A stretch of DNA of 64,000 nucleotides from the NCBI RefSeq assembly GCF_916618955.1, contig NZ_OU745390.1:1550001-1614000 (forward strand), read 5' to 3'. Positions within the stretch are counted from its first letter, which is position 1. The number at the start of each line of letters is the position of its first letter. The stretch is from Pseudomonas sp. Marseille-Q3773. GTDB taxonomy: Bacteria; Pseudomonadota; Gammaproteobacteria; Pseudomonadales; Pseudomonadaceae. Shown in pieces: positions 2,833 to 24,313 of this stretch. Below the pieces are notes generated by a model. The model had not been told where the DNA came from and searched no databases. It saw nothing but the letters and a program-made list of their open reading frames with translations. Made by a program: the position numbers and the translations under genes.

Positions 2833-2939
2833 CGCAAAGGTTTTGTTGCCATCGCCCAAATATTTTCTGCTTTGCAGGTGGTTCACCGACATACGGACAA
2901 TGCACCTCGTGCGTCCTCTTGAAGACTGTTGGAAATGCA

Positions 2940-5381: not shown

Positions 5382-5393
5382 TGTTGTGGTTCC

Positions 5394-6683: not shown

Positions 6684-6684
6684 G

Positions 6685-7929: not shown

Positions 7930-8012
7930 TGTCAATCACTCCCGGACAGGGTGACCGACCAAAGCGGCTTCTACGCTACGGTCAGTCCTTCGCAACAACA
8001 AAAGTCGAACGA

Positions 8013-8028
8013 CGCGCCGGCAGGCGCG
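8013..8028. promoter_or_regulatory. GC-rich hairpin between aapJ and aapQ
   Basis: CGCGCC, loop GGCA, GGCGCG forms a perfect 6-bp stem just after the aapJ stop codon and before the aapQ start. In leftward RNA it is followed by a short U-rich stretch (CTTTTG). Such intercistronic stems often stabilise binding-protein mRNA or cause partial termination. The role here is inferred. Confidence 0.4.
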
Positions 8029-8033
8029 CCGGA

Positions 8034-9053
8034 TCAGCGAAACGGCTCGGCGTAAAGCAGGCCGCCCTGGTTCCATTGGGCGTTCAGACCTCGCTCGAGG
8101 CCGATAGGCGTGTTCTTGCCCAGGGAGTTATCGAAGATTTCCCCGTAGTTGCCACCGGCGGCAATGGCACGACTGGCCCATTTGGCATCCAGCCCCAGTT
8201 GCTCGCCATAATTGCCCTCGCTACCGAGCAGTCGGTTGATTTCCGGGTTGTTGGAGCCGGCCGTCATCTTCGACACGTTGCTTGAGTCCACGCCCAGTTC
8301 TTCAGCCGCCACCAACGCATTGAGTGTCCAGCGCACCACATCAGCCCATTGATCGTCACCCTGGCGTACCATCGGGCCGAGCGGTTCCTTGGAGATCAGT
8401 TCCTTCAACACCATGTGCTCATCAGGGGCTGCGAAGCTTGCCTTCGAGGCCGCCAGGCCGGAGACGTCGTTGGTGAACACATCGCAGGCACCGGCGAGGT
8501 ATTTCTGCTCGCCCTCGGCGGTGGAGTCGATAGGAACGGGTTGGTACTTGATGCCATGGTTGCGTGCGTACTCGGCCAGGTTAAGCTCATGGGTTGAGCC
8601 GGTCTGCACGCAGATTGATGCACCGTCGAGGTCCTTGACCGAACTGGCACCTAGATTCTTGTGAACGAGGAAGCCTTGGCCGTCGTAGTAGTTGATGCCG
8701 GCAAACGTGAGCTTGAGATCGACGTCACGCGTGAATGTCCACGAGCTGTTACGCACCAGCAAGTCGACCTCACCCGACGCCAGCGCCGTGAAGCGCGTCT
8801 GGCCGGTGGTGGGCACGAAGTTGACCTTGTTCGCATCACCGAGCACTGCAGCGGCGACCGCCCGACACATGGATACGTCCAGCCCTTGCCAGGCACCTTT
8901 GGCATCCGGCGCAGACAAGCCGGTGTTACCGGTAGAGACCCCGCAGTTGAGCTTGCCACGGGTTTGTACATCCTTGAGCGTGCCAGCATATGTGAAACCG
9001 GTAGCCAGTGATGCAGCGAGGCATACCAGCGGAACCAGAACAGACTTTCTCAT
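8034..9053 (-). CDS. aapJ: Amino-acid ABC transporter substrate-binding protein (AapJ-like)
   Basis: A 339-residue periplasmic binding protein. The ATG at 9053 is preceded by AAGGTGAAT and gives a classical signal peptide (basic MRKS, hydrophobic core, cleavage near TYA-G at residue 22-23). The mature part has LKDVQTRGKLNCGVS, GLDVSMCRAVAAAVLGD and VRNSSWTFTRDVDL, all characteristic of AapJ/BztA binding proteins for glutamate, aspartate and general L-amino acids. It is the first transporter gene, downstream of the MalY-like lyase, separated from it by two stem-loops. A longer reading from 9128 lacks signal-peptide character. Confidence 0.9.
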   Translation of the reverse strand: MRKSVLVPLVCLAASLATGFTYAGTLKDVQTRGKLNCGVSTGNTGLSAPDAKGAWQGLDVSMCRAVAAAVLGDANKVNFVPTTGQTRFTALASGEVDLLVRNSSWTFTRDVDLKLTFAGINYYDGQGFLVHKNLGASSVKDLDGASICVQTGSTHELNLAEYARNHGIKYQPVPIDSTAEGEQKYLAGACDVFTNDVSGLAASKASFAAPDEHMVLKELISKEPLGPMVRQGDDQWADVVRWTLNALVAAEELGVDSSNVSKMTAGSNNPEINRLLGSEGNYGEQLGLDAKWASRAIAAGGNYGEIFDNSLGKNTPIGLERGLNAQWNQGGLLYAEPFR

Positions 9054-9114
9054 CGTATTCACCTTGTTGTTGTGATGTTTATTAAGGCGGCAGTTCAGGC
9101 AAAGGAGCAGCGAA

Positions 9115-9139
9115 AGGCTTGCGTGCATCGCACAAGCCT
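9115..9139. promoter_or_regulatory. Imperfect dyad upstream of aapJ
   Basis: AGGCTTG (9115-9121) pairs with CAAGCCT (9133-9139) and an inner TGC with GCA, with a two-base bulge. The site lies 62 bp upstream of the aapJ start, between aapJ and the lyase gene. It could be an operator for an aapJ promoter or an RNA hairpin in the leader. Confidence 0.4.
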
Positions 9140-9185: not shown

Positions 9186-10415
9186 TCAGCGGTTCTGTAC
9201 GGCGCGAGTGATTCGCTGGATGGCTTCGTTGACCGTAACCCGGCTGCAGCCGAGGTTGGCCCGCATGAAGCCGTGGCCTTCCAGGCCGAATTTCTGGCCT
9301 TTGTCGAGCCACACGCGCGCCTTGGTCAGCATGAAGCGATCGAGCGCCTGGGCGTCCATCCCCAGCCCTCGACAATCCATCCAGGTGAGGTATAGCGAGT
9401 CGGTGGGAACCACCTTGATCTGCGGTGCCGCCGAGTGGATGGCTTCTGCGAAATGGGCCTGGTTGTCACGCACATAACTCAGCATCTGCTCCAGCCAGGG
9501 CTCGCCGTGGGTATAGGCCGCCTCGGCGGCAACCATGCCAAGCGCATTCACGTAGCGATACAGGTTGCGATCGTACTGGCGCCCCAGCTCGTCGCGGATA
9601 CGCTTGTTCGGGATGAAAATGTTGGCGGTCTGCAAGCCTGCCATGTTGAAGGTTTTGCTCGGCGCAGTGCAGGTGATGCTGTTCTGGGCAAAGGCTTCAC
9701 CCAGGGACGCGAAGGGAATGTGTTTCTTGCACGGGTTGAGGATGAAGTCCTGGTGGATTTCATCGGAAAGCACCAGCACGTCATGCCGCGCGCAGATTTC
9801 GCCCATGGCGCGCAGCTCCGCCTCCGACCACACATTGCCGGTCGGGTTATGCGGGTGGCTCAAGATGAATAATCGGGTATTGGGCTGGATGGCAGCCTCG
9901 AACTTGCGCTCGTCGAAATGGTAACGCTCACCGTCGAAATCCAGGGGCGCCAGCGCCAGGTGGCGCCCGTTGATACGGGCATCGTCATGAAAGTGCACGT
10001 ACACCGGCGGCTGAATCAATACCGAATCGCCCGGCGAGGTAAACGCCTGGATCGCCAGCTTCATGACGGTGATGATGCCAGGCGCCTGCATCAGCCAGTC
10101 GCGTGAAACGTCCCAGCCGAAGCGCTTGCCCTGCCAGCCGATCACGGCGTCGACGTACGACTTGCGAGCACCACCCGCGTAACCGAACACCCCGAACCGG
10201 ACTGCCTCGCTCAGCGCATCGATGACCGCCTGCGGGGAGCGGAAGTCCATGTCGGCGACCCACATCGGCAATGGGTCGGCGGCACGTTCCTCTGGGGTGA
10301 GAAAATTGTGCGCGTAGTCCCACTTCATGGAATTGGTGTGCCGCCGGTCGATAACTTCATCAAACAGGCATGCTGGTTGTTCAAGGGATGTCGGGGGAAG
10401 TGCTTGGGTAGTCAT
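9186..10415 (-). CDS. PLP-dependent C-S beta-lyase, MalY/PatB family aminotransferase fold
   Basis: A 409-residue fold-type I PLP enzyme. It has PLPMWVADMDF near the N terminus (family hallmark), SHPHNPTGNVW, LSDEIHQDFI (PLP-binding Asp) and the Schiff-base lysine in APSKTFNMAGLQ near residue 245. MalY/PatB enzymes cleave cystathionine, cystine or other beta-thioethers to pyruvate, ammonia and a thiol or persulfide. It is the first gene of a leftward set with an Aap-like importer and a DsrE protein, and is divergent from a MetR-like regulator across 121 bp. The physiological substrate is not given by the sequence; a plain aminotransferase role is the alternative. Confidence 0.85.
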   Translation of the reverse strand: MTTQALPPTSLEQPACLFDEVIDRRHTNSMKWDYAHNFLTPEERAADPLPMWVADMDFRSPQAVIDALSEAVRFGVFGYAGGARKSYVDAVIGWQGKRFGWDVSRDWLMQAPGIITVMKLAIQAFTSPGDSVLIQPPVYVHFHDDARINGRHLALAPLDFDGERYHFDERKFEAAIQPNTRLFILSHPHNPTGNVWSEAELRAMGEICARHDVLVLSDEIHQDFILNPCKKHIPFASLGEAFAQNSITCTAPSKTFNMAGLQTANIFIPNKRIRDELGRQYDRNLYRYVNALGMVAAEAAYTHGEPWLEQMLSYVRDNQAHFAEAIHSAAPQIKVVPTDSLYLTWMDCRGLGMDAQALDRFMLTKARVWLDKGQKFGLEGHGFMRANLGCSRVTVNEAIQRITRAVQNR

Positions 10416-10536: not shown

Positions 10537-11427
10537 ATGATCGAGGTCCAGCATTTATCGATTTTGCGTGAGGTTTCCCGCACGGGCAGCGTCACCGCGG
10601 CTGCGGAGCGCCTCAACGTGAGCCAGTCGGCGTTGTCGCACGCGATCGCGAAGTTCGAGGAACGCAGTGGCATCAAGGTGTGGATGAAGGACGGCCGCAG
10701 CCTGCGCTTCACGCAAGCGGGCAACTACCTGCTCGGCCTTGCCGAGCGGCTGCTACCGCAGCTGGACCATGCGCAGCGGGTGCTGTCGGACTTCGCCGAT
10801 GGGCGCCGTGGGGCTCTGCGCGCGGGCATGGAGTGCCATCCGTGCCAGAAATGGCTCATGGGCGTGACAGGGCCGTACTTGCGGCGCTGGCCGGATGTCG
10901 ATTTCGAAGTATGCACCGCGTTCCGCTTTGACGGCGTCGCCGCCCTCCTCGGCCATGAGATCGACCTGCTGATCACGCCTGATCCCATCGACCAGCCAGA
11001 GCTGCTTTTTACACCCGTCTTCGACTATGAACTGGTGCTCATCCTGCATGAGGACCATGCCCTGGCAGACAAGCCCTGGGCGGACCCGCGTGACCTGGTG
11101 CCGGAGACCCTCATCACAGTGCCGGTCAGCCTGGAGCGCCTTGACGTCTATAGCCGCTTCCTGGTTCCGGCCAACTGCCGCCCCCATCACCGCATCACGG
11201 CCGAAACTACCGAGCTGATGCTGCAACTGAGTGCCGCCGGGCGCGGCATCAGTGTCTTGCCGGAATGGCTGCTGCATGAAGAAGGTGCACATTTGCCATT
11301 ACGGGCCGTTCGGATCGGGCCACATGGCTTGCATAAGAGCATTCATCTGGGCGTGCGCAAGGCAGAGGAACACGTCGACTACCTTGCCGGGTTTTTGGAA
11401 ATTGCACGCAATCACCGGCCCATCTGA
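10537..11427 (+). CDS. LysR-family regulator, MetR-like
   Basis: A 296-residue LysR protein. The N-terminal winged helix-turn-helix (about residues 1-60) includes SGSVTAAAERLNVSQSALSHAI-like spacing, with SQSALSHAIAKFEER as recognition helix. The effector domain has AGMECHPCQKWL, FDYELVLI and LDVYSRFLVPANC, matching positions of MetR proteins that sense homocysteine and control methionine genes. It is divergent from the MalY-type lyase and most likely regulates the lyase and transporter operon in response to a sulfur amino-acid intermediate. The exact inducer is inference. Confidence 0.88.
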   Translation: MIEVQHLSILREVSRTGSVTAAAERLNVSQSALSHAIAKFEERSGIKVWMKDGRSLRFTQAGNYLLGLAERLLPQLDHAQRVLSDFADGRRGALRAGMECHPCQKWLMGVTGPYLRRWPDVDFEVCTAFRFDGVAALLGHEIDLLITPDPIDQPELLFTPVFDYELVLILHEDHALADKPWADPRDLVPETLITVPVSLERLDVYSRFLVPANCRPHHRITAETTELMLQLSAAGRGISVLPEWLLHEEGAHLPLRAVRIGPHGLHKSIHLGVRKAEEHVDYLAGFLEIARNHRPI

Positions 11428-11468: not shown

Positions 11469-12053
11469 TCAGGGCTTCATCACGTCACCGTCGTAAAGCA
11501 TGCGGTAATGCTGCTGCCCGCCGGCGAGAAAATGGTCGAAGCCGTTCTGCAGGAAGGCTGACAGCAGGTTGGCCGCTACCAGTGCCACGAAAAGACCGAT
11601 GACGAACTTTTGCAGCGTCGACTTGGATTCCGCTGTTCTGGAAGGCAGCACATCGCGCTGCGCATAGAGCACAGCCATGATCAGGCAGAACATGATGGCC
11701 GCGGTGAACACCATGAATGTCCAAGTGTACATGTGCAGGCCCAGAATGGCTGACCCTGTCGGTTTGGTCCAGGCAGGTGCCTTGGCGAACATGAACAGCA
11801 AGCTCAACAGACTGCCGATCAAGGCGCCGAAAGCGCTGAGCACGTAATTCCAAGGGTTGATGCCGAACACTCGATTGAGCAACAGCCCCGACCCGAGCAG
11901 CATGAAGCACACGCGGATGAGGTTGCAGAATGCGCACGGCAACTCCCCGAGCACCAATTGGTAGAAGAAGGCATCCAGCAGCAGGAAGCAGATGCCGGCA
12001 ATTGCTGCCAGTTCGAGTTGGCCCAGGCGGTTTTCAGTCAGTTGCGCATTCAT
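11469..12053 (-). CDS. DsbB-like membrane protein with a single CxxC
   Basis: A 194-residue inner-membrane protein with about four to five helices. The start is the ATG at 12053, which overlaps the TAA stop of the small upstream gene by one base (TAATG), arguing for coupled translation. Cys40-Ala-Phe-Cys43 in VLGELPCAFCNLIRV sits at the start of a periplasmic or helix-edge position as the quinone-proximal CxxC does in DsbB, followed by an arginine as in DsbB proteins. The second periplasmic Cys pair of classical DsbB is absent; the second half instead has GLHMYTWTFMVF. It may oxidise a partner thiol or be a relative with another redox role. Confidence 0.7.
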   Translation of the reverse strand: MNAQLTENRLGQLELAAIAGICFLLLDAFFYQLVLGELPCAFCNLIRVCFMLLGSGLLLNRVFGINPWNYVLSAFGALIGSLLSLLFMFAKAPAWTKPTGSAILGLHMYTWTFMVFTAAIMFCLIMAVLYAQRDVLPSRTAESKSTLQKFVIGLFVALVAANLLSAFLQNGFDHFLAGGQQHYRMLYDGDVMKP

Positions 12054-12226
12054 TACCAGGATCCCAGTTGCTTGAGGTCGGACAGATGGTGGGCGCCGTG
12101 CCAGGTGGTCCAGATCACCACCAGGATGGCGCACACGATCCATAAAGCGCGAGCCAGCGCCAGGTTTTTGAATGACGCCAACGTGGCGACGAGTGCAAAT
12201 AGCACAGGAATGAAACCAATGAACAT
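12053..12226 (-). CDS. Small membrane protein (57 residues)
   Basis: A short gene read directly from the sequence. ATG at 12226 is preceded by AAAAGG, and the frame runs 57 codons to TAA. It has a hydrophobic helix at about residues 1-17 (MFIGFIPVLFALVAT), a second at 26-41 (ARALWIVCAILVVIWT), then HGAHHLSDLKQLGSW, a His-rich tail. The stop overlaps the start of the DsbB-like gene by one base, and the metallo-beta-lactamase-fold gene lies 40 bp upstream, so it is inside an operon. It may be a small subunit of the DsbB-like protein; this is inference. I do not recognise a named family. Confidence 0.7.
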   Translation of the reverse strand: MFIGFIPVLFALVATLASFKNLALARALWIVCAILVVIWTTWHGAHHLSDLKQLGSW

Positions 12227-12266: not shown

Positions 12267-13136
12267 TCAGAACTGATATGCCTGACCGTCGTCAGGGACC
12301 AGTACATGAGTGGCATCGAGCTGCTTGGCGGTGATGTAATCGGTCAGCTCCTTGCGTGATTGTGTGGCATGGCCAAGCGCTTCGAGATGGCTTGCCACAA
12401 TGTAGGCACCCGGAGCGGCCTTAGCTGCGCGATAGAGGTCTTCTTTCCCCATGATTACCGAGCCTTCGATATCCTTGAAGCGCACGTAACCGGCGTTGAG
12501 CACGATCACTTCCGGGCGGTAGCGGGCGATTGCATGCTCGACTTGGGTGTTCCAGACAGTGTCGCCTGCCACGTATACCGTCTTGTATCCTGGCCTCTGC
12601 AACACCACGCCAGACACGCTGCCCAACTGTTTGCTACGCACCGCCATGGTTGCGTCACTGCCGTGCTGGCCTTCCGTACGTGACAGCGTCACGCCTTTGA
12701 ACTCGCTTTCAGACGTGAGGATGTGCACGTCAGTGAAGCCTGTGGCCCGGATTCGCTGGGCATCTTCTGCATTCTGGGCAAAGATCGGCATGTGCTTGGG
12801 CAGCAACTTCTGGGCAACCTCATCCCAGTGATCGACATGCAGGTGGGTCACAATCACGGCATCTGCCCTGGCCACGTCGTCAGCTGGAATCGGTAGGTCC
12901 ACCACCGGGTTTCGCACCTGCTCGTTGAACGCGCCGGGTGCAGCGGCGTAAGCCCCCTTGGCGCCGAGCATCGGGTCGATCAGGAAGGTGACATCGCCGT
13001 ACCCGAGCTTGATGGTGGCGTTGCGTATCTCCTGGAAGGTCACCGCCTGCGGCGTGCGCGCTTCGACTGCCACGCCAGCGAGCGGCAGAGCCAGCAGTGC
13101 CGTGCATAGGCCATAAGCAAACAGCTTGGATATCAT
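12267..13136 (-). CDS. Secreted MBL-fold metallo-hydrolase (UlaG-like)
   Basis: A 289-residue protein with an N-terminal signal peptide (MISKLFAYGLCTALLALPLAGVAVEA, cleavage near residue 26), so it probably works in the periplasm. The metal site is clear: THLHVDHWD, GQHGSDATM, VAGDTVWN and ASHLEALGH supply the His and Asp ligands of the metallo-beta-lactamase fold, in the arrangement of the UlaG/NAPE-PLD-like branch. AAGGAGGAG precedes the ATG. It is preceded by the alcohol dehydrogenase gene (36 bp) and followed by the small membrane protein gene. The substrate is unknown; hydrolysis of an ester, lactone or phosphodiester is typical of the branch. Confidence 0.85.
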   Translation of the reverse strand: MISKLFAYGLCTALLALPLAGVAVEARTPQAVTFQEIRNATIKLGYGDVTFLIDPMLGAKGAYAAAPGAFNEQVRNPVVDLPIPADDVARADAVIVTHLHVDHWDEVAQKLLPKHMPIFAQNAEDAQRIRATGFTDVHILTSESEFKGVTLSRTEGQHGSDATMAVRSKQLGSVSGVVLQRPGYKTVYVAGDTVWNTQVEHAIARYRPEVIVLNAGYVRFKDIEGSVIMGKEDLYRAAKAAPGAYIVASHLEALGHATQSRKELTDYITAKQLDATHVLVPDDGQAYQF

Positions 13137-13172: not shown

Positions 13173-14201
13173 TCAGGCGTCGTTCATGGTCAGGACCATG
13201 CGGAACTCGACGTCCCCGGAGCGCACTCGCTGATAGGCGTCCCACGCCCTTTCCAGCGGCATGGTCTCGATACGCGCACGCACGTCTGTCATCACGCTGA
13301 AGTCCAGCGTTCTTGCTGCCTCGTAGGGTGTACCGGTGATGTTGCCGCGAACATTGCGCTCGCCGCCAACCAGTGCCCCAGGCATGATGCTGAGCGGTTC
13401 CCGGCCAACGCCGACGACCAGCAGCGTACCCTGCGGCGCCAGCGCCTCCATCAACGGCGACACTGCAGTACTGTCGGTAATGGTGGTAAGAATGACCTGC
13501 GCTCCGCCCATGTTTTTCAGGCATGCCACCGGGTCTTGCGCCCGCGAATCAATATAAGTGTGGGCGCCCAGCGCCAGCGCCTGTTGCTCGATATCCGCAC
13601 CGCGCCCGACAGCGATGACCCTGAATCCCATCCTCCGAGCATATTGCAATGCCAGGTGGCCCAGCCCGCCAATGCCGTGTATCACCACCCGATCACCGGC
13701 AAGGGCACCCGATTTGCGCAACGCATTGAACGTGGCTATTCCAGCGCACAGCAGCGGAGCCGCCTCTACTGCACCCAGCTCGTCCGGGATAGCGACCAGG
13801 CCAGTGGCACCGGCGAGCATCATCTGCGCGTATCCACCGTCTCGCGAGCTACCTACCACAGGCTGATCGAGGCACAAATTGAAGTGGCCCTGCTGGCACT
13901 GTTCACAGAGGCCGCAGTGCCCGCCAAGCCGTCCCACCCCTACGCGCTGTCCGATACGCCAGATCGTAGGGACCTGGCTGCCGACGGCCGCTATTCGACC
14001 GACCACTTCATGGCCGGGCGTGCGCGGCAGCGTCAGCCCAGCTTCGGTGCCTTCAATGGCACCCGCATCGGCGCCACAAATACCGCACGCCTCGACGCGA
14101 ATGAGCACTTCACCAGCGCCTGGCGCTGGAATCTCCAAGTTGGCTAACTGTAACTTCCCCGGCTGGGTAACCTGCATCGCCTTGTAGGTCTTGCCTGCCA
14201 T
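13173..14201 (-). CDS. Zinc-dependent alcohol dehydrogenase (MDR family)
   Basis: A 342-residue medium-chain dehydrogenase. The open frame extends far upstream into the divergent region, but the ATG at 14201 has GGGAGG nine bases before it and begins the typical first strand (MAGKTYKAMQV). Catalytic zinc ligands are Cys39 and His64-Glu65 (CGICGAD, PGHEVVG); structural zinc comes from the cysteines in GGHCGLCEQCQQGHFNLC. The NAD(P)-binding loop is GIGGLGHLALQYA. It oxidises an alcohol or reduces an aldehyde. It heads a leftward operon with the MBL-fold, small membrane and DsbB-like genes, and diverges from the GMC operon. Confidence 0.88.
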   Translation of the reverse strand: MAGKTYKAMQVTQPGKLQLANLEIPAPGAGEVLIRVEACGICGADAGAIEGTEAGLTLPRTPGHEVVGRIAAVGSQVPTIWRIGQRVGVGRLGGHCGLCEQCQQGHFNLCLDQPVVGSSRDGGYAQMMLAGATGLVAIPDELGAVEAAPLLCAGIATFNALRKSGALAGDRVVIHGIGGLGHLALQYARRMGFRVIAVGRGADIEQQALALGAHTYIDSRAQDPVACLKNMGGAQVILTTITDSTAVSPLMEALAPQGTLLVVGVGREPLSIMPGALVGGERNVRGNITGTPYEAARTLDFSVMTDVRARIETMPLERAWDAYQRVRSGDVEFRMVLTMNDA

Positions 14202-14532
14202 TTGCCGCATCCTCCCGAAGTACTCGTGAACCCAGGCCAAGCCCGGACCAGCATGGATTCTCGGTGGAGAAAAGGCCGCAGGCCAAACGAGTAAAACTAT
14301 TGTCCGGTGGAAGCAAATCTTTACTGTCATCCGGGCCTGCTGAACAGGCGATGGGTATTTACCCGCCAGCACTTTCCCAAGGCGGAAAGCTTTACGGCGA
14401 AGGGAGAAGAATTTCTTCGCTGTACCACATTTATCTTTGCTTGGTGCCTGGGGATGGCAGCGCGCCAAATAGCGATGATCGGGAGGCGGGCTTCCCGGAT
14501 TGCTTACCAGAAACGCCATTCGCGGGTTGACG
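14202..14532. other. Divergent intergenic region between the ADH and GMC operons
   Basis: 331 bp without a supported gene. It should hold promoters for both operons. I see a weak dyad CGGGA/TCCCG around 14480-14498 close to the GMC start and no clear sigma-70 pair. Frames open through here are extensions of the flanking genes and show no protein-like pattern. Confidence 0.5.
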
Positions 14533-16098
14533 ATGCAAAGAAAAGTGGAAGTCTTGATAGTTGGAAGTGGCTTTGGTGGGGCTATCGCTGCTCGCCGCCT
14601 GGCCGAAGCCGGACGGGAAGTGCTGGTGCTCGAGCGTGGCCCCTGGCGCGACACGGTGCCCAACCGCTCGCTCGGTATCAAGAACCTGGCGCCCCTGCCC
14701 CAAGGCGCCAAGGCTTACACCCATGGTCTGCGCAGCTTGGGGTCACACCGCCTGAAACGCGATATCGTGTTGAACACGAAGGGCTTCGTCGAGGCTTACC
14801 ACGGTGATGGTATCAACATTATCTGTTCATCGGGTGTAGGCGGTGGCAGCCACATCTATGCCGGCTTCATGGACCGCCCGCTGGTGCCTGGCTACTGGGA
14901 CGGCCGCCATCCAGCGTTGTGCAACGCGGACATGGAGCGTTACTACGCTGAGCTGCTGGAAACTTACCAAGCGCGGCCGCTGACCGCGCAAGACCAGGTA
15001 CCCAACAGCATCGAGACGACCGATTACGACGGGACGCTGAAGTGTCTGGGCCATCCGGCCGTCGCATTCCTCATGGCTGAACGTCCCGGCCACCCCGCCA
15101 AGCGTGTCGACGCCAACGGTATCGAGCGCTGGGAATGCGACATGCAGAACAACAGCTTTCTCGGCTCCCCCTCCGGCGCCAAGACCACGCTTGATTTCTC
15201 GACCTTGTGGCCAGCGATGCAGAAAGGCCTGATGATCAATGCATTGTGCGAAGTCACGGGCATCCGACGCCTGGCCCAACCCACGGCTGATCGCATGCGC
15301 TATGAAGTCGCGTACCGGGACCACACTGCCAAACGAACGGAAACCGTCCTGGCCGAGCATGTCATCGTCGCTGCGGGTGGCCTTGGCAGCGTACGCTTGC
15401 TGCTCAAAAGCCGTGATGTCGATCGCGGTCTCGAAGGCATGCCGCGGCTAGGCATGCAATTTGGCGGCAACGGTGACTATTTCGGTCTGTGGAAGGAAAA
15501 CAGCCGCAAGGACCTGTCCAAAGGCATGCCCATCGGCTCACCTTTCCGTCTCAAGGACTCCTGCAACTCGTCAGTTCTGGTTCTGCGCGCCAGCATCCAG
15601 GGCATTGCTGCCATACCCATGCCCTCTTTGCTCAAGGGATGGCTGCGCCGGCAGTCGGTGATCATCGCCTTCGGTGGCGACAACAACACCGGCAAAATGA
15701 CCATGAAAAACGGGCGATTCAAGATTGCCTACAAGACAAGCGAAAATCCGATCTACCAGCAGATCGATGATGAGATAGCCGGCATCGAGCGCGCGACCAA
15801 CACCAAGGTATACGCACCTCGCAACCCGGTTACCGTTCACCCGGTTGGCGGGGCCTGCCTGGGCGCCTCCATCTCTGATGGTGTTGTCGGCGCCAATGGC
15901 GAAGTATTCGACAACCCGGGCTTGTATGTGGCCGATGCCGCTGCACTCCCCGCTTCCCCGGGTGGCGCACCCAGCCTGACGATCGCTGCCTGGTCGGCGA
16001 ACGTGGCAGACCGCCTGATCGCCGCCTTGCGCGAACGCGACGGCCGGGCCGATGTTTCGCTCAATGCCTCGACAGCGCCAACCGGCCAAGAGGCCTGA
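14533..16098 (+). CDS. GMC-family FAD oxidoreductase (cholesterol-oxidase-like), copy 1
   Basis: A 521-residue flavoprotein. The ATG at 14533 places the FAD dinucleotide loop GSGFGG at residues 11-16; a TTG at 14500 is an alternative start with better GGGAGG spacing upstream. Other marks are ERGPWRDT, the CSSGVGGGSHIYAGF segment around the isoalloxazine ring, and near the C terminus HPVGGACLGA with DAAALPASPG, typical of the cholesterol oxidase branch of GMC enzymes. It oxidises a hydroxyl group of an unknown, probably hydrophobic, substrate. No signal peptide is visible. The neighbour downstream (3 bp) is a close paralogue. Confidence 0.85.
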   Translation: MQRKVEVLIVGSGFGGAIAARRLAEAGREVLVLERGPWRDTVPNRSLGIKNLAPLPQGAKAYTHGLRSLGSHRLKRDIVLNTKGFVEAYHGDGINIICSSGVGGGSHIYAGFMDRPLVPGYWDGRHPALCNADMERYYAELLETYQARPLTAQDQVPNSIETTDYDGTLKCLGHPAVAFLMAERPGHPAKRVDANGIERWECDMQNNSFLGSPSGAKTTLDFSTLWPAMQKGLMINALCEVTGIRRLAQPTADRMRYEVAYRDHTAKRTETVLAEHVIVAAGGLGSVRLLLKSRDVDRGLEGMPRLGMQFGGNGDYFGLWKENSRKDLSKGMPIGSPFRLKDSCNSSVLVLRASIQGIAAIPMPSLLKGWLRRQSVIIAFGGDNNTGKMTMKNGRFKIAYKTSENPIYQQIDDEIAGIERATNTKVYAPRNPVTVHPVGGACLGASISDGVVGANGEVFDNPGLYVADAAALPASPGGAPSLTIAAWSANVADRLIAALRERDGRADVSLNASTAPTGQEA

Positions 16099-16101
16099 GC
16101 C

Positions 16102-17649
16102 ATGGGGGATACAGTTGACGTCGTGGTCATCGGTAGCGGATTCGGTGGCGCGATCGCAGCCAAGCGCCTGGTCGAGGCTGGCTGCACAGTGGTGATGCTG
16201 GAGCGTGGACCCTGGCGTGATACGCTGCCCAACCGATCTATCGGCATGGCTGACCTGGCGCCGCTGCCGCAAGGCGCAAAGGCATTCACCCATGGACTGC
16301 GCTCGGTGCGATCACATCTGTCGAAACGGCAACTTCTGCTCAACCACAGGGGCTATGTCGAGGCGTACCACGGCGCTGGCATCAATGTAGTTTGCTCATC
16401 CAATGTAGGCGGCGGCAGCCATATTTACGCGGGCATGCTGGCAAGGCCATCGGATCCGTCCTACTGGGATGGCCACCACCCACAGGTCAACCAGGCCGGG
16501 ATGGATCGCTATTACAGTGAAATCATCCAGCAACTGGGTGCAAGAGCCGCGACGGAAAGCGACCAGGTTCCCAACCGCATCAGCCTCACCGATCACGACG
16601 GTAAGCTTTCCTGCGAAGGCCTGCCCAACCCGCTGCTGGGGTTCCTGCTGCCGCAATCCCCCGGTGCCCCGGTAAAAGTGACCGATGCAAATGGCGTCGA
16701 ACGCTGGGAATGCGACTATCTGAACAACAGCGTGCTTGGATCCTTCTCTGGCGCAAAAACCACGCTCGATTTCGCGGTGGTGTGGCCTGCGGTGAAGATG
16801 GGCCTGCTGGTCCACGATCTTTGCGAAGCAACCTCCATCGTCGCTTTGAAAAATGCCGTGCCGGGCACTGAGGGCTATGAGGTTCGCTATCACAACCACC
16901 GCGACGGCACACGGCAAAGCATCAAGGCCAGGCGCGTGGTGCTGGCCGCTGGCTGTTTGAATACCGTCTCGCTGCTTTTCAAAAGCCGGGACGAAGCCAG
17001 AGGTCTGCAGGGTATGCCAATGCTCGGGCAAAAATTCGGTACCAATGGAGGCTTCTTCGGGTTCTGGCGAGAAAACGCCCCAGCAGACTTGAGCCGCGGT
17101 TTGCCATTGAGCGGCCCGTTTCGCAGCAAACAATCCCCCAGCAAGCAGGCCCAGTTGCTGCGGGCGGCCATCCAGGGCATCGACGCGATACCGATGCCGC
17201 GCTGGCTCAGGCGTTGGTTCGGCAGGAACGCTTTCATCGTGGCACTTGGCAAGGACCGCAACAACGGTAGCATCACCTTCAACAAAGGAAGGCTCTCCAT
17301 TCGCTATGACAAGGTAGAAAGCCCCGTTTACCAGGAAATCGAGTACGAGCGGCGCACGATCGAGCACACCACAGGTACCCGCATCTACGCCCCCCATGCC
17401 CCGATTACTGTGCAGCCTCTGGGCGGAGCGTGCCTGGGTGCCACTGCCGATGATGGGGTGGTTGGCGCTAACGGCGAGATATTCGACAATCCTGGTTTGT
17501 ATGTGGCTGACGCCGCCGCGCTGCCAGAGTCGCCGGGCCGTCCGCCGAGCCTGACCATTGCGGTATGGGCCACTCATGTTGCGGACTGCCTCATAGCCGA
17601 GACTTGGCGAGAACAGGCAGGTCAGCCAATGCAGGATGGCCTGTCGTGA
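16102..17649 (+). CDS. GMC-family FAD oxidoreductase, copy 2
   Basis: A 515-residue paralogue of the preceding protein with the same landmarks: GSGFGG at residues 11-16, ERGPWRDTLPNRS, CSSNVGGGSHIYAG, and QPLGGACLGATADDGVVGAN near the C terminus. The copies are similar over their full length, so they come from a tandem duplication. One difference is at the putative catalytic region near the C terminus, where copy 1 has VHPVGG and this copy VQPLGG, replacing a histidine by glutamine. The gene begins 3 bp after copy 1 and its stop overlaps the next start. The two could form a heterodimer or act on related substrates. Confidence 0.85.
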   Translation: MGDTVDVVVIGSGFGGAIAAKRLVEAGCTVVMLERGPWRDTLPNRSIGMADLAPLPQGAKAFTHGLRSVRSHLSKRQLLLNHRGYVEAYHGAGINVVCSSNVGGGSHIYAGMLARPSDPSYWDGHHPQVNQAGMDRYYSEIIQQLGARAATESDQVPNRISLTDHDGKLSCEGLPNPLLGFLLPQSPGAPVKVTDANGVERWECDYLNNSVLGSFSGAKTTLDFAVVWPAVKMGLLVHDLCEATSIVALKNAVPGTEGYEVRYHNHRDGTRQSIKARRVVLAAGCLNTVSLLFKSRDEARGLQGMPMLGQKFGTNGGFFGFWRENAPADLSRGLPLSGPFRSKQSPSKQAQLLRAAIQGIDAIPMPRWLRRWFGRNAFIVALGKDRNNGSITFNKGRLSIRYDKVESPVYQEIEYERRTIEHTTGTRIYAPHAPITVQPLGGACLGATADDGVVGANGEIFDNPGLYVADAAALPESPGRPPSLTIAVWATHVADCLIAETWREQAGQPMQDGLS

Positions 17650-18506
17650 AAAGTCGGTTGTTCCTGCTTGGCCAATACCTGCTGCCTCATCATGCCCTGT
17701 CGAGGTTGACCGGTTATTTTGCGAAGTGCAGGGTGCCATGGTTCAAGAACCAGGTCATTCGCTGCTTCATCAGGTGGTTTGACGTAGACATGCGTGCCGC
17801 TATTGGCGATGGCCCCGAGGATTATGAACATTTTGACGCGTTCTTCACCCGGCCGCTGAAATCCGGGGCAAGGCCGCTGCAAGGAGGAGACGGCAGCGTG
17901 ATCAGCCCGGCCGATGGAGTAATCAGCCAGATTGGCGCGATCGACGGGGACCGCTTGTTCCAGGCTAAAGGACACACCTACACCCTTGGCCAACTTCTGG
18001 GGGGTAACGCTGCTCTGGCAGGCCTTTTCCAGGACGGGCGGTTCGTCACCATCTACCTGTCACCGCGAGACTACCACCGCGTCCACATGCCGCTGACAGG
18101 AACGCTGCGAACCATGATTCACGTACCGGGAAAGCTGTTCTCGGTGAACCCTCTTACGGTATCGAAAGTCCCGAACCTGTTTGCCCGCAATGAACGCGTC
18201 ATTTGTGTGTTTGATACACACGCTGGCCCGATGGCCGTCGTGCTTGTAGGTGCCATGATCGTGGCATCGATCACTACAGTATGGGCAGGATCCATACAGT
18301 CGTCGGGTAGCGATGTGACCACCGTTCACTACGAAACAGGCAAAAATGCGCTCAAGCTGGCACGCGGTGTCGAACTGGGACGCTTTGGTCTTGGCTCCAC
18401 CGTGATCGTGGTTTTCGGCGCAAGGGCTATCGACTGGATTGCATCGACGGTCGAAAGTCAGCCACTGCGTGTAGGTGAACAGCTAGGGCTGGTCGTCAGT
18501 GGTTGA
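17646..18506 (+). CDS. psd: Phosphatidylserine decarboxylase, second-locus type
   Basis: A 286-residue protein, the usual length for bacterial Psd. The GTG start at 17646 overlaps the GMC stop by four bases (GTGA). It keeps the charge-relay Asp in SPADGVISQIG, the His in PRDYHRVHMPL, and the LGST self-cleavage site with Ser251 that becomes the pyruvoyl group, so it should be active. Psd makes phosphatidylethanolamine from phosphatidylserine at the inner membrane. Pseudomonads normally carry psd elsewhere, so its translational coupling to two oxidoreductases is unusual and suggests a pathway-specific paralogue. Confidence 0.9.
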   Translation: MKSRLFLLGQYLLPHHALSRLTGYFAKCRVPWFKNQVIRCFIRWFDVDMRAAIGDGPEDYEHFDAFFTRPLKSGARPLQGGDGSVISPADGVISQIGAIDGDRLFQAKGHTYTLGQLLGGNAALAGLFQDGRFVTIYLSPRDYHRVHMPLTGTLRTMIHVPGKLFSVNPLTVSKVPNLFARNERVICVFDTHAGPMAVVLVGAMIVASITTVWAGSIQSSGSDVTTVHYETGKNALKLARGVELGRFGLGSTVIVVFGARAIDWIASTVESQPLRVGEQLGLVVSG

Positions 18507-21117: not shown

Positions 21118-21588
21118 TCAGTCTTCCGGATCGGTCGGCACAGCCAACCCGGTTTTGACATTGCTCATTGACACCAATGTCTTGAAGCGCTTGACGTTGT
21201 TGTTCTGAAAAAAAAGCGCCCTGGTCAATTGCGTGTACTGCTCCATGTTCTTGACCAGCATGATCAATACGAAATCACACTCCCCTGCCACGTAGTAGCA
21301 CTGTTGAACCTGTGGACACGCCATGAACGTCTTTTTCATTTCGTCCAGTAGTTCCAACCGCTCACTTTCTACCTCAACCTCGGTGATGACCGTCAGCATG
21401 TAACCCAGGCTCGCCGGATTCACCTGTGCCACCGTGCGCTGAATGACCCCTTCGCTGCCCAATTTCTTCAAGCGCCGATTGACCGCCGCCGACGACAGGT
21501 TCACCTGCTCGCCAAGATCAATCTGCGATGTAGTTGCATCGCGCTGGACGACCTCCAGCAGGGCACGGTCAAACGAATCAAGGCTCAT
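21118..21588 (-). CDS. Lrp/AsnC-family transcriptional regulator
   Basis: A 156-residue regulator. The start at 21588 (MSLDSFDRALLEVVQRD) matches the conserved beginning of Lrp proteins. The helix-turn-helix is QIDLGEQVNLSSAAVNRR followed by LKKLGSEGVIQ, and the RAM ligand-binding domain follows (CYYVAGECDFVLIML, the typical VTG/AGDxD segment). Lrp-type regulators sense amino acids. It is divergent from the hydrolase/diaminopropionate lyase operon across 169 bp and is the natural candidate to control it, with an amino acid of that pathway as ligand. Confidence 0.9.
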   Translation of the reverse strand: MSLDSFDRALLEVVQRDATTSQIDLGEQVNLSSAAVNRRLKKLGSEGVIQRTVAQVNPASLGYMLTVITEVEVESERLELLDEMKKTFMACPQVQQCYYVAGECDFVLIMLVKNMEQYTQLTRALFFQNNNVKRFKTLVSMSNVKTGLAVPTDPED

Positions 21589-21757
21589 GGTCAGCTCGTA
21601 ATGGATCGCTTGGTTTAAACGCTCAAACGCAATAAAACTACGCAATCCGGCTCAAAATCAAGCTTTCTTGCACTTCGAAAGGAATATCATTTTTGCTATA
21701 ACCCCAGAACAACAACGCGAAGGAGCGGCATCCGCCCTTCGCACTGCGGAGATGACG

Positions 21758-23011
21758 ATGAGCAATGTGCCTGGCTTGCAATTGAATGGTGCGAAGTTTC
21801 TGCAGCAAATAAAGACCTTGGCCGATATCGGTGTTGACCTGACCCATGGCGGCAGGACGCGTATCGCGCTCAGCGATGCGGAAAAAGCTGGCCGTGATCA
21901 ATTGGTGGCCTGGATGCGCGAGCTTGAACTGGACATCCAGGTTGATCGTGTCGGCAATATTTTCGGTTCGCTGCGCAGCGCAGGTGACACCGGACATGAA
22001 CGCCCCTTCATGATGGGCTCGCACATCGACACGGTTACCAACGCCGGAGCCCTGGACGGTTGCTACGGCGTGCTGGCTGGGCTGGCCGTACAGCGTGCAT
22101 ACCGTGAGGCAGGCGTGTTGCCAACGCGCACCATCACCGTGGGCGCCTTTACCAATGAAGAAGGCGTGCGCTACCAACCGGACATGATGGGCTCGCTGGT
22201 CTATGCCGGCGGCTTGAGCGTCGAAGATGCCCTGAACACCGTAGGCACCGACGGCAGCCGCCTGGGTGATGAGCTTGCCCGCATCGGCTATGCCGGCGAG
22301 CTGGAGCCGGGCACCATGGTGCCCCACGAATACCTGGAGCTGCACATCGAACAAGGCCCCATCCTGGAGGCGGAAAACACCTTGATCGGGGTGGTGGAAA
22401 ATCTGCAGGGCATTTCCTGGCAACAGGTGACCGTAAAAGGCAATGCCAACCACGCGGGGACTACCCCTACCCGCCTGCGTCGCGATGCTGGCTATGTGGC
22501 GTGCGCCATCACCACCGAGTTGCGGCAGCTCGCTAAAAGCAGCGGTACCACGCTTGCGACCATCGGTTGCATGACCTTCGAGCCCAATGTGATCAACGTT
22601 ATCCCGCGTCGTGCCAGCTTCACTGTCGACCTCAGGGACCCAGACGAAAGCAAACTGCTGAAAGCTGAACAACAGCTCGCCGCGCGACTTGCAGAAATTG
22701 CCGAAGAAGAAGGCGTGTCGATTGAAACCGAGCAACTGGTGCGATTCCAGCCTGTGACATTTGACCCCTCCCTGGCAAATGCTATCGAAGACTCTGCCCG
22801 ACGCTTTGGCTTCAGCCACCGCCGCATGACTTCGGGCGCAGGCCACGATGCGCAGATGATCGCCCGAATTGCCCCTGCCGCAATGATCTTCGTGCCCAGC
22901 CGTGGGGGCATCAGCCACAACCCCCGCGAACATACTGATGACGACCAACTACTCAACGGTGCGCAAGTGCTGCTGGATGTCGTCCAAGGGCGCCTGAACA
23001 CGCCCCACTGA
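21758..23011 (+). CDS. M20-type Zn hydrolase, N-carbamoyl amino acid hydrolase (HyuC/AmaB) family
   Basis: A 417-residue amidohydrolase. GGAG at 21748-21751 fits the ATG at 21758 with six bases spacing. Binuclear metal ligands are visible: His89 (GSHIDTV), Asp100 (GALDGCYG), Glu-Glu in FTNEEGVRY, His in LHIEQGPILE and His in ISHNPREHT. The family cleaves N-carbamoyl amino acids, beta-ureidopropionate, ureidoglycolate or allantoate. Here it is followed 75 bp downstream by diaminopropionate ammonia-lyase, so a carbamoyl- or acyl-diaminopropionate is a plausible substrate (inference). Lrp regulator divergent upstream. Confidence 0.88.
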   Translation: MSNVPGLQLNGAKFLQQIKTLADIGVDLTHGGRTRIALSDAEKAGRDQLVAWMRELELDIQVDRVGNIFGSLRSAGDTGHERPFMMGSHIDTVTNAGALDGCYGVLAGLAVQRAYREAGVLPTRTITVGAFTNEEGVRYQPDMMGSLVYAGGLSVEDALNTVGTDGSRLGDELARIGYAGELEPGTMVPHEYLELHIEQGPILEAENTLIGVVENLQGISWQQVTVKGNANHAGTTPTRLRRDAGYVACAITTELRQLAKSSGTTLATIGCMTFEPNVINVIPRRASFTVDLRDPDESKLLKAEQQLAARLAEIAEEEGVSIETEQLVRFQPVTFDPSLANAIEDSARRFGFSHRRMTSGAGHDAQMIARIAPAAMIFVPSRGGISHNPREHTDDDQLLNGAQVLLDVVQGRLNTPH

Positions 23012-23031
23012 TCTCCCCTACCCAAATGTGC

Positions 23032-23051
23032 CCGCCGGTGATTACCGGCGG
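23032..23051. promoter_or_regulatory. Intercistronic stem-loop
   Basis: CCGCCGGT, loop GATT, ACCGGCGG: perfect 8-bp stem between the hydrolase and the lyase genes, without a U-tract. It may protect the upstream message or reduce read-through. Confidence 0.45.
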
Positions 23052-23086
23052 CAGTGGCCCCACTTTGCCTGCTATTGGAGTCCGAA

Positions 23087-24313
23087 ATGCTGTTAGCGAA
23101 CCCGAACGTAACCCGCCAACCCTACCCTGATGATCTCAAGCGGATCATGAGCATCGCCAGTGCCAACGAAAGTCGCCAGTGGCTTCGCCAGTGGTCGAGC
23201 ATCAATGCCAATGGCACACCGCTGTATAACCTGCCAAGCCTTGCCAGTGAACTGGGCGTAGCCGAGGTACTGGTCAAAGATGAATCGGTACGTTCGCGAC
23301 TGGGTAGTTTCAAGGCGCTCGGTGCCCCGATCGCCTTGGTGCGCCTGATCATGCGCACCTTTGCCGAGCGCCAGTTCAAGGCTGCAGACCTGTTTACCGG
23401 CAAGCATGCAACTGAACTGGCAACCTTCACTGTCATTAGCGCTACCGATGGCAACCACGGTCGTGCACTGGCTGCCGCAGCCCAGAGTATTGGCTGCCGC
23501 TGCGTGATCGTGCTGCATGCCAACGTCAGCGTCGAGCGTGAGACCGCCATCGCTGCCTATAGCGCACAAATCGTGCGCATCACTGGCAACTATGACGAAT
23601 CTGTCGAGGAAGCGGCCAGCCTGGCAGAGCGCAACAGCTGGCTGGTCGTATCTGACACCTCGTACGAGGGCTATCAGGATATCCCCAGAGATGTCATGCA
23701 AGGCTACGCCACCATTCCTGCTGAAATCATTGAAGACCTGCAAGCTGAGAGCGCACTACGCCCGCCGTTTACCCATGTATTTCTGCAAGGCGGCGTGGGC
23801 GGTCTGGCAGCAGGGATTTCCAGCTACCTGTGGGAGCGCTTCGCTGAGCAACGCCCTACCTTCATCGTTGTTGAGCCGGCGCAAGCCGACTGCCTCTATC
23901 AAAGCGCAAAGTCCGGCAAAGCAGCCAAGGCAACCGGCTCGGTGGATTCCGTCATGGCGGGCCTAGCCTGTGGTGAAACCTCTCCTCTGGCGTGGCAGTT
24001 CCTGCAGCCGTGCGTTGACTTCTTCATGACCATCGAGGATGACGAAGCCGTGACGTCAATGAAGCGATTGGCTCAAGGCAGCCAGCACGACATTCCGCTG
24101 GTAGCGGGTGAGTCCGCAGTAGCAGGCCTCTCAGCCCTGACCCGGCTGATGCAATCCCCCAGCTTGGCTGCGGACGTCGGACTAAACGGGCAATCGCGCG
24201 TGCTGCTGATCAGTACCGAGGGTGCAACAGCGCCGGGCGTTTACCAAGAACTGGTGGGCGAATCGAGCGACTCGGTACGTAAGCGCCAGGTGGACTGGCT
24301 TTTCCGCACCTGA
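23087..24313 (+). CDS. dpaL: Diaminopropionate ammonia-lyase
   Basis: A 408-residue fold-type II PLP enzyme; the usual length of the family is about 400. ATG at 23087 with GGAG seven bases upstream. The Schiff-base Lys76 lies in RLGSFKALGAP, the phosphate-binding and glycine loops in ATDGNHGRALA and QGGVGGLAAG, and MAGLACGE near residue 290 is characteristic of YgeX-like enzymes. They convert 2,3-diaminopropionate (both isomers in studied cases) to pyruvate and two ammonia. Together with the preceding hydrolase it could degrade a ureido- or acyl-derivative of diaminopropionate. Confidence 0.9.
   Translation: MLLANPNVTRQPYPDDLKRIMSIASANESRQWLRQWSSINANGTPLYNLPSLASELGVAEVLVKDESVRSRLGSFKALGAPIALVRLIMRTFAERQFKAADLFTGKHATELATFTVISATDGNHGRALAAAAQSIGCRCVIVLHANVSVERETAIAAYSAQIVRITGNYDESVEEAASLAERNSWLVVSDTSYEGYQDIPRDVMQGYATIPAEIIEDLQAESALRPPFTHVFLQGGVGGLAAGISSYLWERFAEQRPTFIVVEPAQADCLYQSAKSGKAAKATGSVDSVMAGLACGETSPLAWQFLQPCVDFFMTIEDDEAVTSMKRLAQGSQHDIPLVAGESAVAGLSALTRLMQSPSLAADVGLNGQSRVLLISTEGATAPGVYQELVGESSDSVRKRQVDWLFRT

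Follow-up and report, generated by a model that had tools for sequence, protein, structure and literature searches.

The locus considered here raises the question of why a second phosphatidylserine decarboxylase (Psd), a pyruvoyl enzyme that makes phosphatidylethanolamine (PE), should be encoded in overlap with one of a pair of GMC oxidoreductases in Pseudomonas sp. Marseille-Q3773. The window, meaning the whole stretch of DNA that was analysed, comprises 64,000 nucleotides.

Organization of the locus

An earlier note on this DNA described tandem GMC genes and a psd joined by a 4-base GTGA overlap, with genes for an alcohol dehydrogenase, a metallo-beta-lactamase (MBL)-fold protein, a 57-residue membrane protein and a DsbB-like protein running divergently; coordinates and strands were confirmed for both sets, as was the overlap. 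GMC2 starts 3 nt after GMC1, and psd overlaps GMC2 by GTGA. Scans of the locus for consensus promoters and terminators returned fewer matches than shuffled sequence, and were uninformative. The features are as follows.

434-1756, -, TPR protein (PF13431)
2032-2832, +, AraC-type regulator (PF12833)
2520-4124, +, MFS transporter ORF, weakly Bcr/MdtL efflux-like (PF07690 77.7 bits; NCBIfam matches of relatives); homology begins near 2925
4605-9128, -, amino-acid ABC importer genes adjoining PatB: ATPase, two permeases, binding protein (PF00005, PF00528 twice; binding protein TIGR01096 187 bits against a cut-off of 256)
9186-10415, -, PatB/MalY family C-S beta-lyase (TIGR04350 424.5 bits, cut-off 340)
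10537-11427, +, MetR-like LysR regulator (NF011950 MetR 189 bits, below the cut-off of 382; MetR is the best NCBIfam match)
11469-12053, -, DsbB-like membrane protein starting MNAQL (PF02600 23.6 bits, cut-off 22.1)
12053-12226, -, 57-aa protein, membrane-like by eye (translation; no Pfam or NCBIfam family match)
12267-13136, -, MBL-fold hydrolase (Lactamase_B_2, PF12706 51.3 bits); N-terminus resembles an export signal by eye
13173-14201, -, ADH, zinc alcohol dehydrogenase/aldehyde reductase-like (Ahr-like), divergent, starting MAGKTY (PF08240 and PF00107; NF047908 241 bits, below its cut-off of 470)
14533-16098, +, GMC1, GMC oxidoreductase paralog with the conserved GMC His 436 and Asp 315 (PF05199 50.8 bits)
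16102-17649, +, GMC2, with Gln 438 replacing the conserved His and Gly 317 replacing Asp (PF05199 43.2 bits)
17646-18506, +, Psd2 (PSD2), second phosphatidylserine decarboxylase, in translational overlap with GMC2 (TIGR00163 250.1 bits)
21118-24313, Lrp/carbamoylase/diaminopropionate ammonia-lyase set, near GMC genes in the window, L065 and L080
47562-51168, trio of MFS (-), M20 deacylase (-) and LysR (+), from the locus comparison

Conservation and co-occurrence

The association had been proposed to be conserved and specialised, and this is borne out: Psd2 is not the sole copy in its genome and stands apart from the housekeeping enzyme, the order GMC1-GMC2-Psd is shared by another Pseudomonas genome (L005/L072), and GMC and psd genes are adjacent in three Burkholderiaceae genomes. 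Because L005/L072 repeat the order at 83, 74 and 64 % identity, respectively, the arrangement is not due to chance.

Two Psds are present in 2/2 GMC-positive Pseudomonas genomes versus 0/48 GMC-free ones, the GMC-free count being drawn from 80 chosen genomes (48 Pseudomonas, 28 enteric and four GMC-positive). Related genomes are not independent in this or the other counts, and Fisher values, which ignore kinship, are not taken as proof. As all 48 sampled GMC-free Pseudomonas genomes yield exactly one match, Psd is a lone housekeeping gene in this genus; the rule is less strict across the class, with at least two PF02666 matches in 10 of 40 other genomes, the second being weak (<73 bits) except in G325. 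Two of the 28 enteric genomes (0.6 and 0.4 Mb) have no Psd match. Within the Burkholderiaceae, an E. coli-type Psd is carried by 4/4 GMC-positive versus 6/394 GMC-free genomes; G1074 holds its Psd on a separate contig, where the stretch read contains no GMC gene, and G667, the only Burkholderiaceae genome checked for its Psd being an extra copy, has three PF02666 matches.

Such figures bear on the idea that Psd copies are mobile among Proteobacteria and merely travel beside GMC genes, with no functional tie. E. coli-type Psds do occur on plasmids and in varied Burkholderiaceae contexts (no common context was seen in five of 41 plasmid records, that of C. metallidurans being without gene annotation), and tblastn found no GMC gene within 17.5-19 kb around Psd in the six GMC-free Burkholderiaceae carriers. 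The independent lineages are also few, and one enteric genome, G730, holds the GMC pair and its neighbours with a single Psd, none being detected by tblastn in the 19.5 kb read around the pair. Hitch-hiking nevertheless sits poorly with the skewed counts in both groups, with the overlap of psd and GMC2 in Pseudomonas, and with the adjoining of the same GMC pair by Psds of two sources, and we consider it unlikely. That the locus represents a conserved module is, by comparison of these genomes, something of which we are highly confident.

Identity and origin of Psd2

Psd2 was previously described as a full Psd with an LGST site, which holds: it scores 206.6 bits against PF02666 (cut-off 22) and well above the TIGR00163 cut-off of 111.75, and LGST is present. 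The protein also retains D90, Y137, D142, H144, H147, S166 and V167, and its N-terminal region aligns to E. coli Psd. In PMC7952604, Y137, S166 and H144 are given as phosphate- and carboxyl-binding residues of Psd. With regard to the GMC-associated Burkholderiaceae copies (PSD2b), a pattern search found GST in 9/9 PSD2 and PSD2b sequences, whilst P0125 carries His for D142. From its sequence, Psd2 is predicted with good confidence to be a true phosphatidylserine decarboxylase.

Phylogenetic analysis used 45 of 62 gathered sequences, the mid-locus frame of the other 17 not being Psd. The PSD2 clade contains two genomes of the genus, three further contigs and one enteric (moderate support of 94/85), and is sister to the Pseudomonadaceae housekeeping Psd (93/89). 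Psd2 is placed apart from the housekeeping Psd of its own genome, to which it is 55 % identical. PSD2b, on the other hand, nests within Ralstonia/Neisseriales Psd and shares 89 % identity with one Ralstonia enzyme; numerous proteins from Ralstonia reach 86-89 % identity with the Burkholderiaceae Psd, yet of 35 of their source contigs, compared by length, only one recurs among the GMC contigs listed. The Psds beside GMC genes therefore come from two sources, the PSD2 clade and the Ralstonia/Neisseriales type, and the extra Psd seems to have been acquired at least twice from different sources. Duplication of the housekeeping psd, the simplest origin suggested in the earlier note, fits the sister position of Psd2 to the Pseudomonadaceae genes, but not the old split, the enteric copy within the clade or the different Psd of the Burkholderiaceae.

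Could Psd2 instead have switched to an amino acid, either soluble or specific to the pathway, and decarboxylate it in a step of the GMC pathway, much as PsiD-type enzymes act on tryptophan? PSD-fold tryptophan decarboxylases exist (8zia, 8x4q), the neighbourhood is of an amino-acid character, and PSD2 has diverged more quickly than the housekeeping Psd (64 % vs 96 % identity between the same two genomes). Y137, S166, H144 and the E. coli-like N-terminal region are, however, all retained, PSD2b remains close to its Ralstonia relative, and none of the changes that PSD2 and PSD2b have in common where other Psds are invariant affects an active-site residue, making such a switch distinctly improbable.

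The GMC pair

GMC1 and GMC2 share 58 % identity; beyond these two, GMC2 matches nothing else in the genome at E <= 0.001. Both possess the GMC_oxred_C domain and the FAD-binding GMC fold that define the GMC superfamily, and the predicted structure of GMC1 (pLDDT 88.5; 88.6 for the GMC2 model) adopts a cholesterol-oxidase fold. At the conserved GMC His position, 100 aligned rows display 52 His, 47 Gln and one Leu. The GMC2 clade has Gln in 47/48 rows and Leu in one, whereas the GMC1 clade has His in 33/33; at the Asp/Gly position, Gly accompanies Gln in 47/47 rows, with Asp in 33/33 GMC1 and 19/19 outgroup rows, such that the GMC1 clade and outgroup retain both His and Asp. The GMC2 clade is supported at 100/99 (IQ-TREE, 46 rows) and 0.992 (FastTree, 100 rows), and 7/8 genomes with close GMC homologs carry both paralogs, as typed by alignment rows. 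GMC1 and GMC2 are thus two old clades with a fixed His/Gln split. The alignment omits P0001, P0002, any of P0003-P0085 shorter than 480 or longer than 560 aa, G417, which has a TGA in frame, and the C55 copy of G510; it is partly redundant (Trin_psd is P0035, Trin_mer is P0039 and G1074 is P0032), and P0045 is truncated. One comparison set comprised 39 proteins of the Gln type and 26 of the His type, as assigned from the homologue list.

The description of these proteins as cholesterol-oxidase-like stands as distant homology (~20 % identity to solved cholesterol oxidases), but not as membership of that family, NF058674 giving 112.4 and 106 bits where 850 is required. The position of ChoA Asn485 is Ala or Pro in 99/100 rows, and GMC2 has Gln at that of His447. 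According to PMC5722936, changing H447 to Gln in ChoA lowers kcat 140-fold. The fixed split hence poses an enzymological question, namely what role a natural 'catalytic mutant' plays beside its intact sister. GMC2, with its His to Gln and Asp to Gly changes, is perhaps a regulatory or structural partner of GMC1, or an enzyme with a changed reaction.

The shared neighbourhood

When ten stretches representing three families are compared all against all, the two GMCs recur in every family, as do Psd, a MetR-like LysR and an MFS transporter. Found in two families are the PatB lyase, ADH, ABC ATPase, LysR-M20-MFS trio, AraC and TPR genes, and the diaminopropionate lyase set; in the third, the M20 deacylase is only distantly related (41-44 %). 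Homologs of the MetR-like LysR lie near GMC or Psd in Burkholderiaceae (67 %, edge-cut in L079) and enterics (35 %), and those of the MFS ORF at 2520-4124 in L007 (51 %), L066 (52 %), L078 (66 %) and L080 (70 %). PatB homologs occur in L064, L081 and L078 (69-71 %), with a nearby MetC-type lyase in place of PatB in enteric L007, whilst L064 and L081 also harbour homologs of ADH (64-65 %, cut by the locus edge in L064) and of the importer ATPase (59 %). In B. cepacia GG4 (L079), the TPR and AraC homologs (74 and 70 %) adjoin each other near the GMC pair.

In both enteric loci the MFS-M20-LysR trio lies next to the GMC pair with its gene order unchanged (53, 66 and 62 % in L007); neither the trio nor the MFS transporter of 2520-4124 was seen by tblastn in 19.5 kb of Ap-967, and across 98 further Pseudomonas genomes the best match to the M20 deacylase is 51 % identical (E <= 1e-100). 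Ap-967 does contain an 87 % homolog of the DsbB-like protein. Since tblastn found neither diaminopropionate ammonia-lyase nor carbamoylase in the stretches read of Ap-967, GG4 and G1074, that set was left out of the core.

The recurrent neighbours are therefore amino-acid, transport and regulatory genes, each common to only some loci. This matters for the lipid pathway raised in the earlier note. In its fuller form the GMC pair would be membrane-acting enzymes whose substrate is a lipid or a lipid-linked alcohol, Psd2 would supply PE as substrate or membrane context, and the genes would be coupled through the same lipid. Cholesterol oxidases are indeed the closest solved structures to GMC1 and GMC2, psd overlaps GMC2 translationally, Psd2 retains its PS-binding residues, and a Lactamase_B_2 family MBL lies on the opposite strand. 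Besides psd, though, no lipid gene was found among annotated neighbours of the compared stretches, where some ORFs are unannotated, and no second one recurs across families; the MBL is common only to Ap-967 among compared loci, and the Asn485 replacement and the low cholesterol oxidase scores likewise speak against a lipid substrate. The pathway is accordingly rather unlikely, and its proposed substrate finds no backing in the neighbourhood.

A possible protective spare Psd

Our preferred explanation, held at a probability of roughly 35 %, is that the locus represents in Pseudomonas a rare module spread by lateral transfer that serves to use or detoxify an amino acid, in which a GMC pair and an E. 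coli-type Psd sit among genes for amino-acid uptake and cleavage, with Psd2 as a protective spare. The imported substrate would be a beta-substituted alanine, serine- or cysteine-like and possibly N-acylated; the odds of an amino-acid-type substrate appear about even. It would be deacylated where M20 is present, its side-chain alcohol may be oxidised by GMC1 and ADH, with GMC2 as the partner subunit of GMC1 or a second, altered activity, and the product could be split by the PatB or MetC beta-lyase. Mimosine, canavanine, rhizobitoxine, djenkolic acid and albizziine were considered as substrates in view of the chemistry of legumes and of some hosts of these genes being symbionts, and the evidence favours none.

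Psd2 would make ordinary PE and be kept as a spare protecting PE synthesis, the proposed reason being that pyruvoyl Psd is poisoned by the serine-like substrate itself or by an intermediate that reacts with carbonyls. Inhibition of E. coli Psd by serine hydroxamate and hydroxylamine, as reported in PMC10970773, is of this kind. Against a spare stand the G730 GMC pair without Psd2, the six Burkholderiaceae Psd carriers without close GMC genes, the Psd of G1074 lying on another contig and the many Ralstonia Psds of which so few share a listed contig with GMC genes; against a resistant target stands the lack of any active-site change common to PSD2 and PSD2b. The protective role of Psd2 is thus put forward tentatively.

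That the GMC pair is accompanied by Psds of two different origins suggests that PE synthesis is tied to a degradative pathway in a way not yet described, and the locus hints at a connection between the handling of an unusual amino-acid-like compound and membrane integrity. More speculatively, and with considerable doubt on our part, this could be a mobile catabolic or detoxification module with a near-obligate GMC pair, one member being changed, to which a spare Psd was repeatedly added because the chemistry of the module endangers the pyruvoyl enzyme. If true, this would be, to our knowledge, the earliest known case of a Psd retained for protection, and the GMC proteins would form an enzyme pair of a new type. 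No bacterial GMC-Psd link appears among the matches listed in the open-licence literature.

Comparison with known systems

Gene clusters that carry an additional or resistant version of an enzyme being poisoned exemplify target-duplication self-resistance. Psd2 is similarly a second copy of a housekeeping enzyme in a dedicated cluster, obtained from two sources, but its loci show no toxin, biosynthetic genes or resistant residue in evidence; among the matches listed in the literature searched, no report describes Psd in this role.

Likeness to the Streptomyces cholesterol oxidase ChoA lies in the GMC fold, the FAD-binding N-terminus and, for GMC1, the His at the H447 position, whilst the ~20 % identity, the Ala or Pro at Asn485 and the Gln of GMC2 set the pair apart. 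As in PatB/MalY C-S beta-lyase systems, the lyase exceeds its TIGR04350 cut-off and the LysR regulator is best matched by MetR; the difference is that the window PatB sits beside a GMC pair and Psd, with a MetC-type lyase near the enteric locus. Finally, Psd2 resembles the E. coli-type Psd (TIGR00163) in its score, LGST site, D90, Y137, H144, H147, S166 and aligned N-terminal region, yet differs in being a second copy, diverged from the housekeeping gene, faster-evolving and coupled to GMC genes.

Gene organization and the second Psd

Two GMC oxidoreductase genes followed by a psd gene with a GTGA overlap, and an opposite-strand set of four genes, were described in the earlier note, and the reading frames of the window agree with both parts of that description.

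Reading frames of the locus (coordinates, strand, product)
14533–16098, +, GMC1
16102–17649, +, GMC2
17646–18506, +, Psd (PSD2), with GTGA common to GMC2 and Psd
13173–14201, −, ADH
12267–13136, −, Lactamase_B_2 hydrolase (MBL)
12053–12226, −, 57-aa protein
11469–12053, −, DsbB-like protein

GMC1 and GMC2 are the only matches to a GMC2 query in their own genome (E ≤ 0.001). The 5.56 Mb single-contig host genome harbours two PF02666 genes, PSD2 and a copy at 3.854 Mb (55 % identity). Immediately 5′ of the copy at 3.854 Mb is a gene identified by eye as a rhodanese; since an excerpt of PMC4149516 describes this arrangement at P. syringae PSPTO_4955, the copy is taken as the housekeeping enzyme.

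Residues ascribed in the available part of PMC7952604 to phosphate binding (Y137, S166), carboxyl contact (H144) and proenzyme cleavage (D90, D142, H144, LGST) are all kept in PSD2 of the window. Amongst nine copies of PSD2 and PSD2b (the Burkholderiaceae Psd beside GMC), D142 is missing only from the PSD2-clade protein P0125, and no active-site position was found to be changed in both PSD2 and PSD2b. Compared with Ap-967, a second genome of the genus, PSD2 is the fastest-diverging of the genes compared, at 64 % identity, with values of 74 % for GMC2 and MBL, 83 % for GMC1, 93 % for PatB and 96 % for the housekeeping Psd. A reading of PSD2 as an amino-acid decarboxylase, which this divergence favours but the retained residues speak against, seems distinctly improbable. 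Given the 96 % value and its placement in the window's own genus, Pantoea sp. Ap-967 looks like a misnamed Pseudomonas.

Distribution of the GMC pair

Close GMC2 homologues occur in 2 of 298 genomes of the genus (the window genome and Ap-967), 2 of 295 from the family of Pseudescherichia vulneris and 4 of 398 from that of Trinickia. A protein search with GMC2 returned 568 proteins (E ≤ 1e-60), the best 120 of which include Yokenella, Dryocola, Leclercia, Cronobacter, Phytobacter, Kosakonia and Klebsiella, as well as Burkholderia, Paraburkholderia and Trinickia. The pair is therefore rare within each family, yet spread over three. Both paralogues are present in seven of the eight genomes with close homologues, the eighth (G1074, of Burkholderiaceae) showing GMC2 only.

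In a class-wide draw, 5 of 369 genomes (the window genome apart) match GMC2 at E ≤ 1e-50, with 38–45 % identity. Around more distant GMC relatives from other Gammaproteobacteria (37–45 %; L067–L071, L008, L009), no Psd was found by tblastn in the stretches read; those aligned keep the conserved GMC histidine. In L008 as in L009, the GMC gene is preceded by a 158-aa gene. An Enterobacter cloacae plasmid (L121:12001–12396) has a C-terminal GMC fragment (~60 % to GMC1) flanked by insertion sequences, and the same part is matched by six other enteric plasmids. On the Sphingobium plasmid pEP2 (L122:2319–13773) there are two GMC genes, one full (51 % to GMC1) and one partial (58 %), both with a YdhR-family gene after them; IS21/IS6100 copies adjoin, and an aldehyde dehydrogenase comes after the full GMC.

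Origin and linkage of PSD2

In a midpoint-rooted IQ-TREE phylogeny of 45 Psds, the comparison with the housekeeping enzyme that the earlier note had proposed, PSD2 falls in its own clade (94/85) with the Ap-967 and Pseudescherichia copies, P0123, P0125 and P0126, sister to the Pseudomonadaceae housekeeping Psd (93/89); the Pseudescherichia housekeeping Psd lies elsewhere in the tree. The Psds beside GMC1 in two Trinickia genomes (G667, G996) and Burkholderia cepacia GG4 (G1071) form one clade (100/99) nested inside Ralstonia/Neisseriales Psd. As the Psds beside GMC belong to separate clades, two sources therefore served the same place.

The GMC1–GMC2–psd order, likewise suggested for a search of other genomes, recurs in Ap-967. 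In the Trinickia genomes and GG4, GMC1 is followed by psd after a gap of ~122 nt, and in Pseudescherichia the order is GMC2, GMC1, then a convergent MFS gene and psd. Co-occurrence counts, which are weaker than their face value due to kinship among the genomes, are as follows: two Psds in 2/2 Pseudomonas genomes with GMC and a single Psd in 48/48 sampled without; two Psds in 1/2 enterics with GMC and 0/28 sampled others; and an E. coli-type Psd (E ≤ 1e-60 to PSD2b) in 4/4 Burkholderiaceae with GMC versus 6/394 without. The Burkholderiaceae counts come from two draws with seemingly identical genomes, treated as one sample, and the extra-copy status of Psd there is drawn from one genome, G667, with three PF02666 matches.

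That Psd is simply hitch-hiking beside GMC is to be weighed against these counts and the two sources, and alongside three exceptions to the association. The enteric G730 has the GMC pair and one Psd, with none near the pair in the stretch read; in the six Burkholderiaceae genomes with an E. coli-type Psd, GMC is absent from the stretch read around it; and many Ralstonia proteins are close to PSD2b in sequence, 1 of 35 apparently sharing a record with a listed GMC. Overall, hitch-hiking is considered unlikely. In Cupriavidus metallidurans (L128:9060–11379), a Psd adjoins a PtsJ-type MocR regulator of vitamin B6 salvage (above cut-off), and in L129 another Psd lies ~4 kb from a MocR-like gene.

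Neighbouring genes and a proposed role

Several neighbours have homologues in Burkholderiaceae loci (L064, L078–L081, with L079 from GG4) or in the enteric loci L007 and L066.

Neighbouring genes (position, product, homologues)
10537, LysR, 67 % in L064, L081 and L078; piece at edge of L079
9186, PatB, 69–71 % in L064, L081 and L078
13173, ADH, 64–65 % in L064 and L081
4605, ABC ATPase, 59 % in L064 and L081
2520, MFS, 66 % in L078, 70 % in L080, 51–52 % in both enteric loci
434–1756, TPR protein, 74 % in GG4
2032–2832, AraC regulator, 70 % in GG4

The LysR at 10537, whose best NCBIfam match is MetR (below cut-off), has a relative (35 %) in both enteric loci. A LysR–M20–MFS trio at 47.6–51.2 kb occurs in the same order in both (62–64, 65–66 and 53–54 %), its M20 having a top match of 51 % amongst 98 other genomes of the genus (E ≤ 1e-100); neither the trio nor the MFS at 2520 was found in Ap-967 within the 19.5 kb examined. 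The PatB-family lyase scores above its family cut-off, as do a MetC-type cystathionine beta-lyase and a RidA-type protein in L007, and Trinickia has an amino-acid permease and a cystine-type binding protein, both below cut-offs. By annotation, the neighbourhood thus appears to be one of amino-acid, transport and regulation genes. A role for the locus in lipid metabolism is considered rather doubtful: psd itself is a lipid gene, and no other was found amongst the genes annotated. An Lrp regulator, a carbamoylase-type M20 and a diaminopropionate ammonia-lyase (21118–24313), also beside GMC2 in Trinickia L065 (62–70 %), are possibly a second linked pathway.

The role proposed here starts with import of a serine- or cysteine-like compound, from which M20, at loci that have one, would remove an acyl group; GMC1/GMC2 and ADH would then oxidise it, and the beta-lyase would cleave the product. 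E. coli Psd is reported to be blocked by hydroxylamine and by the serine analogue serine hydroxamate (PMC10970773, in part), so such a compound could leave the cell short of PE, in which case a spare Psd would be an advantage.

Divergence of GMC2 and comparison with known enzymes

Of 100 aligned rows, 52 have His in the column of the conserved GMC histidine, 47 have Gln and one has Leu. The 48 rows lacking His form one side of a single branch (FastTree support 0.992; IQ-TREE 100/99 in a 46-row subset with 21 non-His), and Gln is taken as derived because the outgroup and GMC1 have His. At a second position, Asp is found in GMC1 (33/33) and the outgroup (19/19), and Gly in the Gln rows (47/47). 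From 39 Gln and 26 His proteins amongst the best 120, 12 Gln/His pairs apparently share a source record, an indication, though not proof, of linkage.

The components of the locus are of known kinds; no link between a GMC enzyme and Psd in bacteria appeared amongst the literature matches listed (open-licence papers). GMC1 His 436 and GMC2 Gln 438 align to H447 of solved cholesterol oxidases, and a His-to-Gln change in the Streptomyces enzyme cuts kcat 140-fold, according to an extract of PMC5722936. The predicted models of GMC1 and GMC2 (pLDDT 88.5 and 88.6) have a cholesterol-oxidase fold, and their best structure matches are cholesterol oxidases, at an identity of only ~20 %.
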